A stretch of 64,000 nt of DNA from Neisseria bacilliformis (GTDB lineage: Bacteria; Pseudomonadota; Gammaproteobacteria; Burkholderiales; Neisseriaceae). Position 1 is the stretch's first letter, and every line of letters begins with the position of its first letter. The stretch spans positions 372,001 to 436,000 of the forward strand of contig NZ_CP059571.1 in assembly GCF_014055025.1 (NCBI RefSeq). The letters are read 5' to 3'. Position numbers and translations under genes: made by a program. Below are positions 23,454 to 31,400 of the stretch, piece after piece. The notes under the pieces are model-generated. The model had not been told where the DNA came from. It saw only the letters and a program-made list of their open reading frames with translations, and did not search any database.

Positions 23454-23792
23454 TCAGCTTACGGTTTCCACCGGGCCGTGGTCGTCGCAGTGGCCGTTGT
23501 GGACGTGGTGCAGGCGGCCGTTGACCAGGTAGTCCACGTGGTCGCCGTGCGGCACGGCTTCGTGGCCGCAGCCTGCGCCGTGGACGTGGCTGCCGCAGGT
23601 GTCTACGGGGTGGCAGCCGTCGGCGTTGGTTTCGCTCACTTCGATGACGTGTTCGTCGTAGTGGCCGTTGTGCTCGTGGTGCAGATGGCCGTCGTGCAGG
23701 TAGTCGGTGTGGCCGTTGTGGCGGATGGCGGTGTGGCCGCAGCCTGCGCCGTGGACATGGGTGTGGTGTTCGTGGGTGTTGCAGTTGCTCAT
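23454..23792 (-). CDS. Histidine-rich duplicated protein, probably metal binding
   Basis: 112 residues, 26 of them His and 6 Cys. No signal peptide, so probably cytoplasmic. The protein is an internal duplication with a period of 57 residues: HVHGAGCGH at 12-20 and again at 69-77, each followed by a DYL-x-x-G-x-LHH-x-HNGH segment (30-44 and about 87-101). Such His/Cys density points to zinc, nickel or copper binding as buffer or chaperone; this is inference, and I do not recognise a named family. AAAGGAAA precedes the ATG. A TATAAT (minus strand, 23895-23890) and an overlapping palindrome lie upstream. Confidence 0.75.
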   Translation of the reverse strand: MSNCNTHEHHTHVHGAGCGHTAIRHNGHTDYLHDGHLHHEHNGHYDEHVIEVSETNADGCHPVDTCGSHVHGAGCGHEAVPHGDHVDYLVNGRLHHVHNGHCDDHGPVETVS

Positions 23793-23985: not shown

Positions 23986-25689
23986 ATGTCCGCCGTAAAA
24001 ATCCAAACCCGTTCCATAGACCAAACTGCCTGCCACACTTTAATCCAATCCGGCGCAGACCCGCTCACTGCCCGCCTGTGCGCCGCACGCGGCGTGGTTT
24101 CCCCGGGCGAACTCGACGACAAACTCGCCGCGCTTTTGCCCTACCAAACGCTGACAAACTGCGAAGCCGCTGCTTCCCGCCTCGCCGACGCGGTTCAAAA
24201 AAAAGAAAAAATCCTCATCGTGGCCGACTACGATGCCGACGGCGCAACCGCATGTTCCGTGGGCATGGCCGGTTTGGGCGCGATGGGCGCGGCGGTGGAT
24301 TTTCTTGTGCCCAACCGCTTCGAGCACGGCTACGGCCTTACCCCCGAGCTGGCCGAAATCGCCGCCGCGCAGGGTGTGGATTTGCTAGTAACGGTGGATA
24401 ACGGCATTGCCAGCATTGCGGGCGTGGCGCGGGCGCAGGCTTTGGGGCTGGACGTAATCGTTACCGACCACCATCTGCCCGCCGACGAAGTACCCAACTG
24501 CATTATTGTGAACCCCAACCAGCGCGGTTGTGGCTTTGCCAGCAAAAGCCTGGCGGGCGTGGGCGTGATTTTTTATGTATTGATGGCCTTGCGTGCCGAA
24601 CTGCGCTGGCGCAATTATTTTTCAGACGGCCTCAAAGAGCCGAATCTGGGCGAGCTTTTGGATTTGGTGGCACTGGGCACGGTGGCCGACGTGGTGCCGC
24701 TCGACCACAACAACCGCATTCTCGTCTCGCAGGGTTTGAAACGGATGCGCTCGGGCAAAATGCGCCCCGGCATCCGCGCTCTCTTCGACGTGGCGCGGCG
24801 CGACTGGAAAAAAGCGCAGCCTTTCGACATGGGCTTTGCACTGGGCCCGCGCATTAACGCGGCGGGGCGGCTCGACGATATGTCGCTGGGCATCGCCTGC
24901 CTGCTCGCGCCAGGCGAGGCCGAAGCGCAAACGCTGGCCGAACAGCTCAACGGCCTGAACATCGAACGCCGCGAAATCGAACAATCTATGCTGCAAGACG
25001 CGCTCAACGCCTTTCCCGACACCCTGCCCGACGGACAAACCACCCTCGTGGCCTACCGCGACGATTTCCATCAGGGCGTGGTGGGCATCGTCGCCAGCCG
25101 TCTGAAAGACCGCTTTTACCGCCCCGCCATCGTGTTCGCCCCCGCCGACAACGGCGAAGTGCGCGGCTCGGGGCGTTCCATTCCCAATCTGCACCTGCGC
25201 GACGCGCTCGATTTGGTTTCCAAACGCCACCCGAATCTGATTTTGAAATTCGGCGGACACGCGATGGCGGCCGGTTTGAGCATACTCGAACACAACATCC
25301 CCGCCTTTCAGACGGCCTTTGAAGAGGCCGTGCGCGAAATGGTGCGCGAAGAAGACTTGTCGCAAACCTTCATCACCGACGGCAGCCTCGCCGCAGGCGA
25401 CATCACGCTCGAACAGGCGCAAAACCTCGCCCGCCAAGTGTGGGGCCAAGGCTTCGCCCCGCCCAGCTTCACCGACCTGTTCCGCGTCGTGCGCCAGCAG
25501 AGTTTGGGCGCGGAGGGCAAACACAAAAAAGCATGGCTGCAAAAAGACGGCTGTGAATTTGAAGCGATGTTTTGGCGGTGCAGCGAAGACATCCCCGAAT
25601 ACATCCGCACCGTGTACCGCCCTGTTGCCAACGAATGGCGCAACAACCTTGAATTGCAGCTTTATATCGATTATTGGGAAGCGGTGTAA
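23986..25689 (+). CDS. recJ: Single-stranded-DNA-specific exonuclease RecJ
   Basis: 567 residues. 5'-3' ssDNA exonuclease of recombination and mismatch repair. DHH phosphoesterase motifs: VADYDADGATA, VTVDNGIAS, TDHHLP and the later GPRINAAGRL; the DHHA1 domain shows KFGGHAMAAGLS. Two uptake sequences are read through in frame, giving FSDGL at 24620 and FQTAF at 25308. TATAAT at 23950-23955 is a candidate -10. Confidence 0.96.
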   Translation: MSAVKIQTRSIDQTACHTLIQSGADPLTARLCAARGVVSPGELDDKLAALLPYQTLTNCEAAASRLADAVQKKEKILIVADYDADGATACSVGMAGLGAMGAAVDFLVPNRFEHGYGLTPELAEIAAAQGVDLLVTVDNGIASIAGVARAQALGLDVIVTDHHLPADEVPNCIIVNPNQRGCGFASKSLAGVGVIFYVLMALRAELRWRNYFSDGLKEPNLGELLDLVALGTVADVVPLDHNNRILVSQGLKRMRSGKMRPGIRALFDVARRDWKKAQPFDMGFALGPRINAAGRLDDMSLGIACLLAPGEAEAQTLAEQLNGLNIERREIEQSMLQDALNAFPDTLPDGQTTLVAYRDDFHQGVVGIVASRLKDRFYRPAIVFAPADNGEVRGSGRSIPNLHLRDALDLVSKRHPNLILKFGGHAMAAGLSILEHNIPAFQTAFEEAVREMVREEDLSQTFITDGSLAAGDITLEQAQNLARQVWGQGFAPPSFTDLFRVVRQQSLGAEGKHKKAWLQKDGCEFEAMFWRCSEDIPEYIRTVYRPVANEWRNNLELQLYIDYWEAV

Positions 25690-25727
25690 CGTTGGCTGAA
25701 AGGCCGTCTGAAAAAGTGTAAAAACGT

Positions 25728-26165
25728 ATGGACTACCAAGTAAAAACCTTTGACGAACTGACCACCCGCCAGCTGCACGCCATCTACCGCGCCCGCACCG
25801 CCGTGTTCGTGGTCGAGCAAAACTGCCCGTATCAGGAAGTGGACGGCAAAGACTTGGCCGCGCTGCATATTTTCGCCGAACAGGACGGCGAAATCGCCGC
25901 CTACTGCCGCCTGATCCCCGCCGCCGACGGCGTGCATCTCGGGCGCGTGCTGGTGGCGCGGCCTTACCGCGCACAAAAACTCGGCCGCGAACTGGTGGCT
26001 TTCGCCCTCGAATGCGCCACCCGCCGCTTTCCCGGCCAAAACCTGCACGCGCAGGCGCAAAGCCATTTGCAGAAATTCTACGCATCCTTCGGCTTTCGTG
26101 CCGTGTCCGACAGCTATCTCGAAGACGGCATCCCGCATATTGATATGACCAAAGAGGCCGTCTGA
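25728..26165 (+). CDS. elaA: GNAT-family acetyltransferase ElaA
   Basis: 145 residues. The ElaA signature Y-x-x-RxxVFVVEQNCPYQEVDGKD is at 19-42, the acetyl-CoA loop GRVLVARPYRAQKLGRELV at about 72-90 and a C-terminal YASFGFRAVSDSYLEDGIPHIDM. The last three codons and the stop (GAG GCC GTC TGA) are a DUS, giving a C-terminal EAV. Substrate unknown. Confidence 0.92.
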   Translation: MDYQVKTFDELTTRQLHAIYRARTAVFVVEQNCPYQEVDGKDLAALHIFAEQDGEIAAYCRLIPAADGVHLGRVLVARPYRAQKLGRELVAFALECATRRFPGQNLHAQAQSHLQKFYASFGFRAVSDSYLEDGIPHIDMTKEAV

Positions 26166-26210
26166 AAAGGCAGTTTCAACGAAGTTAAAAACGCTTTTTC
26201 AGACGGCCTC
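26155..26210. terminator. Inverted DUS pair whose left arm is the end of elaA
   Basis: Left arm GAGGCCGTCTGA contains the elaA stop codon; the right arm lies about 30 bp further. Confidence 0.65.
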
Positions 26211-26226
26211 TGCCGCGATCCGAACC

Positions 26227-26658
26227 ATGAAACCCGCACTCCTCTTCCTGCTGGTTGCCGCGCTGGGCAACTGCTGCTACCACCTCGGCCAGAAGTCGCT
26301 GCATCTCGGCGGCAACCCCATGCTGCTGCTCGCGCTTTACTACACCTTTGCGCTGGCACTCGCCCTGGCCGCCGCCCCGTTTTTCGGCGCGGTAAAGTTT
26401 TCAGACGGCCTCATCAGCACCCTGGCCAATCCGCGCGTGTGGCTGGTGTCGCTGGGCACCGTGATGATCGAACTCGGTTTCCTCATGGCCTACCGCAGCG
26501 GCGGATCGGCGCAGTGGGCGGGCGTGGCCGTGAACGGCACCGCCGCGCTGCTCTTGATTCCCGCCAGCCTGATACTGTTCAAAGAAGCCTTTTCCTGGCA
26601 GAAAATGCTTGGCATCGCCCTGACGCTGGCAGGAATCTGGTTTCTCGCCAAAGACTGA
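26227..26658 (+). CDS. Small EamA/DMT-like membrane protein
   Basis: 143 residues with four to five hydrophobic segments, the size of a single EamA half-module. The C-terminus (GVAVNGTAALLLIPASLILFKEAFSWQKMLGIALTLAGIWFLAKD) is typical of DMT-superfamily transporters, including the Glu in the conserved LFKE position. Substrate unknown. A DUS is read in frame as KFSDGL at 26398-26412. Confidence 0.8.
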   Translation: MKPALLFLLVAALGNCCYHLGQKSLHLGGNPMLLLALYYTFALALALAAAPFFGAVKFSDGLISTLANPRVWLVSLGTVMIELGFLMAYRSGGSAQWAGVAVNGTAALLLIPASLILFKEAFSWQKMLGIALTLAGIWFLAKD

Positions 26659-26773
26659 AAACAAAAGTGCCGCGCACGATCTGCCGCGTCCGGCCAAATA
26701 GTTGCCCCGCGATGTTGCGCCGCCCGAGTGCAAACCCTATCATGCCGCCCCGAACCCCGCTTGGAGAAAGCCC

Positions 26774-27565
26774 ATGAAACTGCCCGTACTGTTCGTCGGC
26801 AACGGCAACCCGCTCAACGCCGTGCGCAGCACCGCCCACACCGAAGAATGGCGCAACATCGGCGACGAGCTGCTGGGCGAATACGAAGGCGAAATCGAAG
26901 CCGTGCTGTGCGTTTCGCCCAACTGGGTCAGCGAAGGCACGCGCGTAACCGCCGCCGTGCAGCCCGCCACTCTGCACGATTTTTCCGGCTTCCCGAGCGA
27001 ATTGGAGCAAACCGAATACCCCGCCCCCGGCAGCCCCGAAACCGCCGAACGCGTCTGCGAACTGCTCGGCGCAGAGGCCGACCCGGCGCGCGGCATCGAC
27101 CACGGCGTGTGGGCGGTGCTTAAACACCTCATCCCCGACGCGTCCGTCCCCGTCGTCCAACTCAGCCTCGACTCGCGCCTCGACGCGCAGGGGCACTACG
27201 ACCTCGCCGCCCGCCTCGCCCCTCTGCGCAAAGAAGGCGTGCTCATCGCCGCCACCGGCAATACCGTCTCCAACCTCCCGCTGCACGACTGGCAGCACCC
27301 CGACCAAACCGGCCGCGCCTACCCCTGGGCCGACCTCGCCCGCGAACTCATCAACAAATGGATAACCGCCCGCCGCCTCGACCGCCTGCTCGACGAAGCC
27401 CACTACCCCATCGCCGTGCGCCAGGCACTGCACCTGCGGCAGAACTTCTACCCCATGCTCTACCCGCTGGCCGCCGCCGGCGCGAAAGAGCCGGTGGAGT
27501 TTTTCAACGACGAAATCGTCGGCAAATCCGTGTCCATGACCTCCTTCGTTATCGGCTTTCTTTGA
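26774..27565 (+). CDS. 4,5-DOPA-dioxygenase (YgiD/LigB) homologue lacking metal ligands
   Basis: 263 residues, same length and layout as E. coli YgiD (ATLHDFSGFP, YPAPGSP, IDHGVWAVLKHLIPDASVPVVQLSLDS, AYPWADLARE). The four histidines that bind zinc in YgiD are all replaced: GHG is GNG (N10), SAHW is SPNW (N50), NVVHN is NTVSN (S166) and EHYLPL is QNFYPM (N224). H110 of the IDHG motif is kept. The reading frame is intact, so it is probably expressed but not a classical extradiol dioxygenase. The true function is unknown. It follows the EamA-like gene on the same strand. Confidence 0.85.
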   Translation: MKLPVLFVGNGNPLNAVRSTAHTEEWRNIGDELLGEYEGEIEAVLCVSPNWVSEGTRVTAAVQPATLHDFSGFPSELEQTEYPAPGSPETAERVCELLGAEADPARGIDHGVWAVLKHLIPDASVPVVQLSLDSRLDAQGHYDLAARLAPLRKEGVLIAATGNTVSNLPLHDWQHPDQTGRAYPWADLARELINKWITARRLDRLLDEAHYPIAVRQALHLRQNFYPMLYPLAAAGAKEPVEFFNDEIVGKSVSMTSFVIGFL

Positions 27566-27769
27566 GGCCGCCTGAAAGCGCGGCTTCGGCGCATCAGGTA
27601 GGGTGTGTCGCCCCAAGGCGGCGCACGCGTTCTCTGCCGCATAACGGCGGAGGCCGTCTGAAAGCGCAGTCCAAACAGCAAAACAGATTTTCAGACGGCC
27701 TCCAAGCCGTTTTTACGCAAACCCCCGTTTCGCAAACCAAACGCAAACAGACCCTAACGGGCGCGCCGC
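27566..27769. other. Intergenic repeats
   Basis: A DUS variant with the extended repeat tail (27567-27598), a solo REP arm (27598-27629), an inverted DUS pair (27651-27702) and a short AACAGACCCTA match to the end of the MITE-like element (27746-27756). No gene. Confidence 0.6.
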
Positions 27770-27775
27770 TATAAT
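27770..27775 (+). promoter_or_regulatory. Candidate -10 box
   Basis: TATAAT 37 bp upstream of the next start codon. No convincing -35 is seen. Confidence 0.35.
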
Positions 27776-27812
27776 CCGCCGTCTTGAAGCAACCACACCA
27801 CGAAACACCGCT

Positions 27813-28373
27813 ATGAAACTGTTTTACCTCCCTGTTTTCACCGCCCTTGTTTCCCTCTCCCTTCCCGCGCAGGCCGCCACCTATGTGTGCGGCAGCGGCG
27901 AAAACACCAGCTATTCCAGCGAAAAAACCGACCCCTCCTGCCGCGAATCGCAGCGCGCGCCCGCCGCCAAAGCGGAAAAAACCGACAAGGCCGACATCTG
28001 GGCCGATTCGTTTTTCGACGACCTCACCGTCCTGCCACCCGCCGCGCAAAACACCGCCGCCAACAAAGCCGAGCCGCCGAAAATGACGGTGAAACTGCGC
28101 CACAGCCCGCAGCAGGCCGCCGTGAAAACCGCCGCCCCGGCCAAAGCCCCCGTCCGCGCTGCCGCGCCCATCTATGCCGCCGTGAAACCCAGGCTCACGC
28201 GCGACCAAATCCTGCAAAAGGAAATCAGCAGCGAACGCGCCGCGCTGGTGCGCACCAAAGGCCAGCTCGAAGCCGCGCTCAAACAGGGCGGCAACGCCGC
28301 CCACCTGCAACGCGCCGTGGCCGACCGCGAGGCCAACATCCGCGCCATCGAACGCGAACTGAAAAAGTTTTAA
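27813..28373 (+). CDS. Secreted protein with C-terminal coiled coil, unknown function
   Basis: 186 residues. Signal peptide MKLFYLPVFTALVSLSLPAQ then AA. The mature protein begins with TYVCGSGENTSYSSEKTDPSCRES (two Cys, resembling the DUF4124-like periplasmic N-terminus), then a Pro/Ala-rich linker and a helical charged C-terminus (RDQILQKEISSERAALVRTKGQLEAALKQGG) likely to be a coiled coil. Family not firmly recognised. Confidence 0.75.
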   Translation: MKLFYLPVFTALVSLSLPAQAATYVCGSGENTSYSSEKTDPSCRESQRAPAAKAEKTDKADIWADSFFDDLTVLPPAAQNTAANKAEPPKMTVKLRHSPQQAAVKTAAPAKAPVRAAAPIYAAVKPRLTRDQILQKEISSERAALVRTKGQLEAALKQGGNAAHLQRAVADREANIRAIERELKKF

Positions 28374-28395
28374 ACGCCCGCGCCGGTATGCGCAG

Positions 28396-28438
28396 AGGCC
28401 GTCTGAAAAACTGTGTAACACGGTTTTCAGACGGCCTT
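28396..28438. terminator. Inverted DUS hairpin
   Basis: AGGCCGTCTGAAAA stem, then a T-rich stretch, about 20 bp after the preceding stop. Confidence 0.7.
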
Positions 28439-28455
28439 TTTCCTGCCGCGCCGCC

Positions 28456-30962
<2,507 letters not shown>

Positions 30963-30983: not shown

Positions 30984-31400
30984 ATGGGCTACCCGCAACA
31001 GGTGATAGACAACATCCTCAACCTGCCCGCCGACAAACGCTGCCTGCACGCGCTGAAAAACATTGCCGAGGCGGAAACGCTGTATGTGCTGGCCGACGAC
31101 GAAGGCGAATGCCGTTTCTGGGCGGACGAGGGCGAAGAGGCCACCTTCCTCCCCGTGTGGCCGGAGCAGGAATTTGCCGAAATGATGAAATCCGAGGGCG
31201 AATCGGTGTGGGAATTTGCGCTGGAAGAATTCTTGCGGGACAGCGTGCCGTGGCTGATGGAAGAGGGCTGCGGCATCAGCGTCTTCCCCGTGGCCGCCCA
31301 CCCCGAAAGCGTGGTGATGCCCGCCGTCGAATTTGCCGCCCGCGTCAATCGGATTCTGGACGAAAGCTACGGCGAGGCACTGGATTTGCCGTATCTGTAA
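30984..31400 (+). CDS. DUF2750 family protein
   Basis: 138 residues, acidic, no signal peptide. Pattern [15 protein letters not shown]..[14 protein letters not shown] and [22 protein letters not shown] fits DUF2750, a family of unknown function. Co-oriented with gyrB and probably co-transcribed. Confidence 0.85.

Follow-up and report, generated by a model that had tools for sequence, protein, structure and literature searches.

A YgiD-like gene of Neisseria bacilliformis with an intact reading frame and four of five active-site histidines replaced

The locus and its surroundings

The window (the whole stretch analysed, i.e., 64,000 nucleotides of contig NZ_CP059571.1 of Neisseria bacilliformis, positions 372,001 to 436,000 of the forward strand) contains at 26774..27565 on the plus strand a reading frame of 263 residues with zero stop codons inside, referred to here as the query. 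Its protein is matched by the LigB superfamily profile PF02900 (E 1.2e-10; 41.3 bits vs. a gathering score of 26.3) and aligns with E. coli YgiD (2pw6) over residues 2-261 (E 3e-46), which bears out the full-length similarity claimed in the first-pass annotation, as well as the intact frame and the retention of the histidine at residue 110 (H110). The score for 4,5-DOPA extradiol dioxygenase (NF007914) amounts to 191.5 bits and lies under the family cut-off of 233 bits. The query is the sole LigB-family match in its genome, which was searched as a whole (2.49 Mb, one contig). Comparisons within Neisseria refer to 46 genomes of the genus; the sister gene (L003 in genome G012) is 71% identical to the query and reaches 218.4 bits with NF007914. 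The following features are referred to below:

23986..25689, plus strand: presumably a recJ-like gene; order conserved in the sister genome
26227..26658, plus strand: gene of a small EamA-like membrane protein, directly upstream of the query; weak match (EamA, E 0.0014), below the cut-off
26774..27565, plus strand: putative pseudoenzyme gene of the LigB superfamily (YgiD-like), 263 aa plus stop; matches to PF02900, NF007914 and 2pw6
26801..26803, plus strand: codon 10, AAC (Asn), where a metal-ligand His is expected from alignments to YgiD and homologues
26921..26923, plus strand: codon 50, AAC (Asn), where a metal-ligand His is expected; Asn common to four other Neisseria genomes
27101..27103, plus strand: codon 110, CAC (His); by alignment, the substrate-side catalytic His, kept here and replaced by Tyr in the sister gene
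27269..27271, plus strand: codon 166, TCC (Ser), where the second catalytic His is expected by alignment; common to the sister gene
27431..27433, plus strand: codon 220, CAC (His) for the usual Pro; only the sister gene agrees among 48 rows
27440..27445, plus strand: codons 223-224, CAG AAC (Gln-Asn) for Glu-His, residue 224 being the position of the third metal ligand
27494..27559, plus strand: C-terminal segment 241-262 (FNDEIVGKSVSMTS...), one of the stretches best conserved across the query, the sister gene and L010

The pair formed by the EamA-like gene and the altered gene is conserved in the sister genome, where the orthologue sits in the same context of recJ-like and EamA-like genes. 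Beyond these two, the neighbours vary, and neither an operon nor a partner could be recognized from gene order. Within 25600-28600 no promoter-like sites were found, and terminator-like sites are about as frequent as chance predicts (6 found vs. 5.9 expected). Elsewhere in the window, 23454-23792 on the minus strand encodes a His-rich protein of 112 aa with two similar repeats (HVHGAGCGH...DYL...LHHxHNGHxDxH), which looks metal-binding and to which no Pfam family could be assigned at E 0.1. A DUF2750 protein is encoded at 30984-31400 on the plus strand between what we take to be gyrB-like and tex-like genes. Furthermore, the AG-type DNA uptake sequence, whose occurrence in Neisseria is described in PMC3630211, is present 93 times in the window.

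Active-site positions and their distribution among homologues

In the alignment to 2pw6, residues N10, N50, S166 and N224 of the query each face a histidine of E. coli YgiD, exactly as the first-pass annotation had it, and the motifs around the active site are similar between the two proteins. The functions assigned to these positions, however, have to be corrected: the annotation counted four zinc ligands, whereas PMC11926856 describes H15, H53 and H229 of the Beta vulgaris enzyme (query positions 10, 50 and 224) as iron ligands and H175 and H119 (positions 166 and 110) as catalytic, with a loss of activity if either of the latter is changed to Ala; YgiD is stated there to rely likewise on three histidines. 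All three iron-holding positions are thus Asn in the query, and of the catalytic pair of the YgiD family only H110 is present, S166 taking the place of its partner. Nor is the loss confined to ligands, as had been proposed, since the catalytic histidine at 166 and Glu223, which adjoins residue 224 and is Gln in the query, are changed as well.

An alignment artefact can be ruled out as the source of this pattern, because the pairwise alignment and two multiple alignments concur, and none of them places His at the four sites. The spacing of the sites in the query agrees with that of H15/H53/H119/H175/H229 in the Beta vulgaris enzyme (BvDOD); in the pairwise alignment to 8in2, a two-residue gap is situated at the 166 site, where the offset of nine residues equals that at 110. 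Sequencing errors do not account for N50, S166 and N224 either, as these recur in other genomes (S166 and N224 in the sister genome, N50 in four further genomes); N10 is found in the query genome only.

The multiple alignment of homologues comprised 47 full-length sequences (the query, 38 from its own family and 8 named ones; 10 partial segments were omitted), and His occupies all four sites (10, 50, 166, 224) in 41 of them. The six exceptions constitute a single Neisseria clade in the tree (support 100/99). Four of these (L004, L005, L008 and L010, in genomes G005, G025, G029 and G040) exhibit the pattern H-N-H-H at 10/50/166/224. They are about 50% identical to the query and share with it the loss of His50, but unlike the query they keep the remaining histidines, and the two that were tested exceed the NF007914 cut-off (259.3 and 264.6 bits). 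Having Asn for one iron ligand, these four proteins might possess an altered metal site; a DnaJ-like gene, as we presume it to be, lies near all four of them and near one unaltered gene. The sister gene possesses H-Q-S-N together with Tyr at 110 (H110Y), and the query N-N-S-N with His at 110, a final set present in no other gene examined. The heavily altered form is thus found in two genomes only. Outside the family and within the order, all five histidines occur in 64 of 65 further genes, chosen among the higher-ranking entries of the match table and hence not a random sample; the lone exception (L155) departs at 224 only, within an unalignable C-terminal part.

The first-pass annotation spoke of a coordinated loss. 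This is not supported, as relatives at intermediate stages show successive steps, and the loss was therefore not simultaneous. The simplest order on the tree would place the loss of H50 first, that of H166 and of E223-H224 in the ancestor of the query and the sister gene, and that of H10 later in the query. Within the clade, the particular combination of Asn and Ser varies, the query having N10/N50/H110 and the sister gene H10/Q50/Y110.

The changes are concentrated at the active site. Among 41 distinct unaltered homologues, 30 columns are invariant, i.e., the five active-site histidines and 25 others. Four of the five histidines are changed in the query, compared to two of the 25 other columns (Fisher p = 0.003), and both of these further changes (A49P and S161T) lie near a changed histidine in the sequence; the sister gene has changed four of the five histidines and four of the 25 others (Fisher 0.011). 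Fast evolution in general is insufficient as a cause, since L050, the most divergent unaltered row, has changed 12 of 46 conserved columns and keeps all five histidines.

Selection on the gene and comparison with broken copies

For the branch codon model, 16 genes were kept and 32 of the 48 rows left out. On the query branch, omega was estimated at 0.19-0.24 vs. 0.19-0.23 for the background, and a value of 1 was rejected (2dlnL 20.9, p 5e-6), with the reservation that synonymous change approaches saturation and that the genes differ in GC3 (0.85 in the query vs. 0.52-0.61 in the H-N-H-H genes), such that omega estimates can be distorted. For the tips of query and sister gene taken jointly, omega was 0.27, again with rejection of 1 (2dlnL 47.6), and the difference from the background was not significant (p 0.095). 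On the sister's own branch the best value was 0.97, values from 0.3 to 1 fitting about equally, and constraint on that gene may be relaxed. The H-N-H-H genes yielded 0.08; in a fit with five classes, the stem shared by the six genes went to the upper bound at a length of 0.03 and was left uninterpreted. Under neutrality, the branch as fitted would be expected to accumulate about 9 to 12 stop codons, and the query has none.

A comparison of orthologues between the query and sister genomes places the gene in a wider context. Of 61 orthologue pairs, 44 were usable; the other 17 gave boundary or shadow-frame fits and were excluded. The pairwise omega of query and sister gene is 0.17, a value exceeded in 12 of the 44 usable pairs (the query's included), and nine of the 44 are of lower identity. 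The gene is thus an ordinary, slightly fast one among these pairs. Purifying selection on the query branch, subject to saturation and base composition as noted, accompanies a recognizable enzyme family and, by sequence, the loss of its catalytic residues, two marks of a pseudoenzyme.

Decay was named in the first-pass annotation as the outcome that would speak against a new role, indicated by dN/dS near 1. Its early form, in which catalysis had become useless and the active site drifted first while the frame was still unbroken, appears unlikely for the query, where omega of 1 is rejected, the expected stop codons are missing and 23 of the 25 invariant residues other than His are retained. What keeps it in consideration is the sister gene, which has lost H110 and whose branch fits values up to 1, the rather fast evolution of the gene, and the fate of ygiD elsewhere in the genus: 16 of the 46 genomes have no match, and broken copies exist in five others (L052 in G018, L053 in G013, L054 in G042, L030 in G027 and L031 in G036).

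The reading frames of these copies are disrupted in various ways (frameshifts, stops, missing stretches, interruptions); those in G018 and G036 look interrupted by, or joined to, frames that are presumably transposase-like. All 22 active-site positions that they cover are still His, which is opposite to the altered clade, where the frame stays and the histidines go, and which we regard as supporting evidence. As a control the comparison is weak, because four of the five copies broke recently, their pieces still matching intact relatives at 92-100% identity, which left little opportunity for His losses; the copy in G042 alone is old (55-71% identity to intact relatives).

Alternative chemistry, lost catalysis and a putative binding role

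Conservation within the protein is shifted. The query and the sister gene are 63% identical in residues 1-120 and 78% identical in residues 121-263, whereas in unaltered pairs the N-terminal half is on average slightly better conserved (difference +0.04 vs. -0.14 for query and sister). Among 143 unaltered pairs with identities of 55-85%, not one shows so uneven a split, and the three H-N-H-H pairs are intermediate (-0.02 to -0.07); the division into halves was picked post hoc, the unaltered pairs lack independence, and the better conserved half contains two of the five His sites. Query and sister gene have twelve residues in common that no other row (46 in all) possesses. Of these, eight lie within 166-226 (S166, P169, R201, H220, R222, Q223, N224 and Y226), a stretch that includes two of the former active-site positions.

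A remodelled pocket with three Asn, H110 and the new H220 could conceivably support another chemistry, either a metal-free reaction or one with another metal, the alternative function that the first-pass annotation had offered. The twelve residues specific to the pair (S166, P169, H220, R222, Q223, N224 and Y226 among them) speak for this reading; Asn is able to act as a metal ligand in other proteins, and the H-N-H-H relatives, which retain two of the three ligands, are strongly constrained. The reading is nevertheless weakened, since the active-site set is not conserved between the two closest genes (N10/H10, N50/Q50, H110/Y110), and three of the five sites lie in the N-terminal half, where conservation is lower; we consider it rather improbable.

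Concerning copy number, six genomes have an altered copy, and five of them have an unaltered one as well, the query genome being the exception. Of seven genomes in which an unaltered group-A copy is the sole match, none has a second copy (Fisher 0.005, the number of independent lineages behind the contrast being small). Through the second copy, catalysis by the first may have become dispensable. Heteromeric class III dioxygenases offer a different use for such a pair: the alpha subunit of 2-aminophenol 1,6-dioxygenase, a member of the LigB superfamily, is inactive and without a metal site, and it stands beside an active beta subunit. A corresponding role of the query as an inactive subunit paired with an active paralogue, as the second copies might suggest by analogy, is very improbable, because the query genome, unlike that system, holds no second family match and the gene is intact and constrained there, so that its protein is independent of an active family partner, and because the related plant enzyme is described in PMC11926856 as monomeric in solution.

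Being left with neither His nor carboxylate at the ligand sites, the query protein should have lost iron binding and oxygen activation, and its presumed inactivity follows from the lost ligands. Two other proteins agree with this reading: in the Beta vulgaris enzyme, H175A (position 166) by itself abolishes activity (PMC11926856), and in MEMO1, a protein of similar fold that binds iron through H49, H81 and C244, the removal of one ligand by H49A or C244S ends iron binding (PMC11081632). The latter source reports a dioxygenase-like fold in which no dioxygenase activity was found, and the title of a work cited in it refers to peptide binding in a "vestigial active site". MEMO1 thus resembles the query as a similar fold put to a use other than the known ring cleavage, and differs from it in still binding iron; it was absent from the results of the sequence searches of the PDB. 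The one open library consulted returned no literature on LigB pseudoenzymes, none of the titles and abstract openings listed names the query protein, and the sole match for a DOPA dioxygenase of Neisseria concerns Streptomyces.

We regard it as probable that the query is a pseudoenzyme derived from an extradiol dioxygenase of the YgiD type, with a non-catalytic, metal-free role. The first-pass annotation had proposed a pseudoenzyme as well, and apart from coordination this proposal is well supported by the focused loss, the intact frame, an omega far below 1 and the sister orthologue in place. The history might have begun with a ygiD copy that lost H50 (to N), one of the three iron-binding histidines, in some Neisseria, where a second, active copy probably made catalysis by the first dispensable. 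In the lineage of query and sister gene, Ser would then have replaced the catalytic histidine (S166) and Gln-Asn the Glu-His pair at the third ligand (Q223-N224), before the query lineage finally lost H10. Neither bound catalytic iron nor ring cleavage is expected of the resulting protein, and selection still appears to maintain it in folded form. Its present action may be binding, with the vestigial pocket accommodating a small molecule or the more conserved C-terminal half contacting a partner.

More tentatively, the clade could be seen as a living series in which a non-haem iron site is converted under selection, with three His, two His plus Asn, one His and an all-Asn pocket as its stages, each in an intact protein. 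The end of the series might be a metal-free binding protein or an enzyme with a remodelled pocket of its own, made up of S166, P169, H220, R222, Q223, N224 and Y226.

Pseudoenzymes occur in many enzyme families; to our knowledge, it is less common to have natural examples that stand midway between a complete metal site and its absence. For annotators the gene calls for caution, since its best family label is DOPA dioxygenase, yet all the iron-holding residues that this label implies are absent. Related bacteria hold intact genes at successive stages of loss, some of them beside a copy of the working type, and thus the order of loss and the job that the protein has retained are directly testable.
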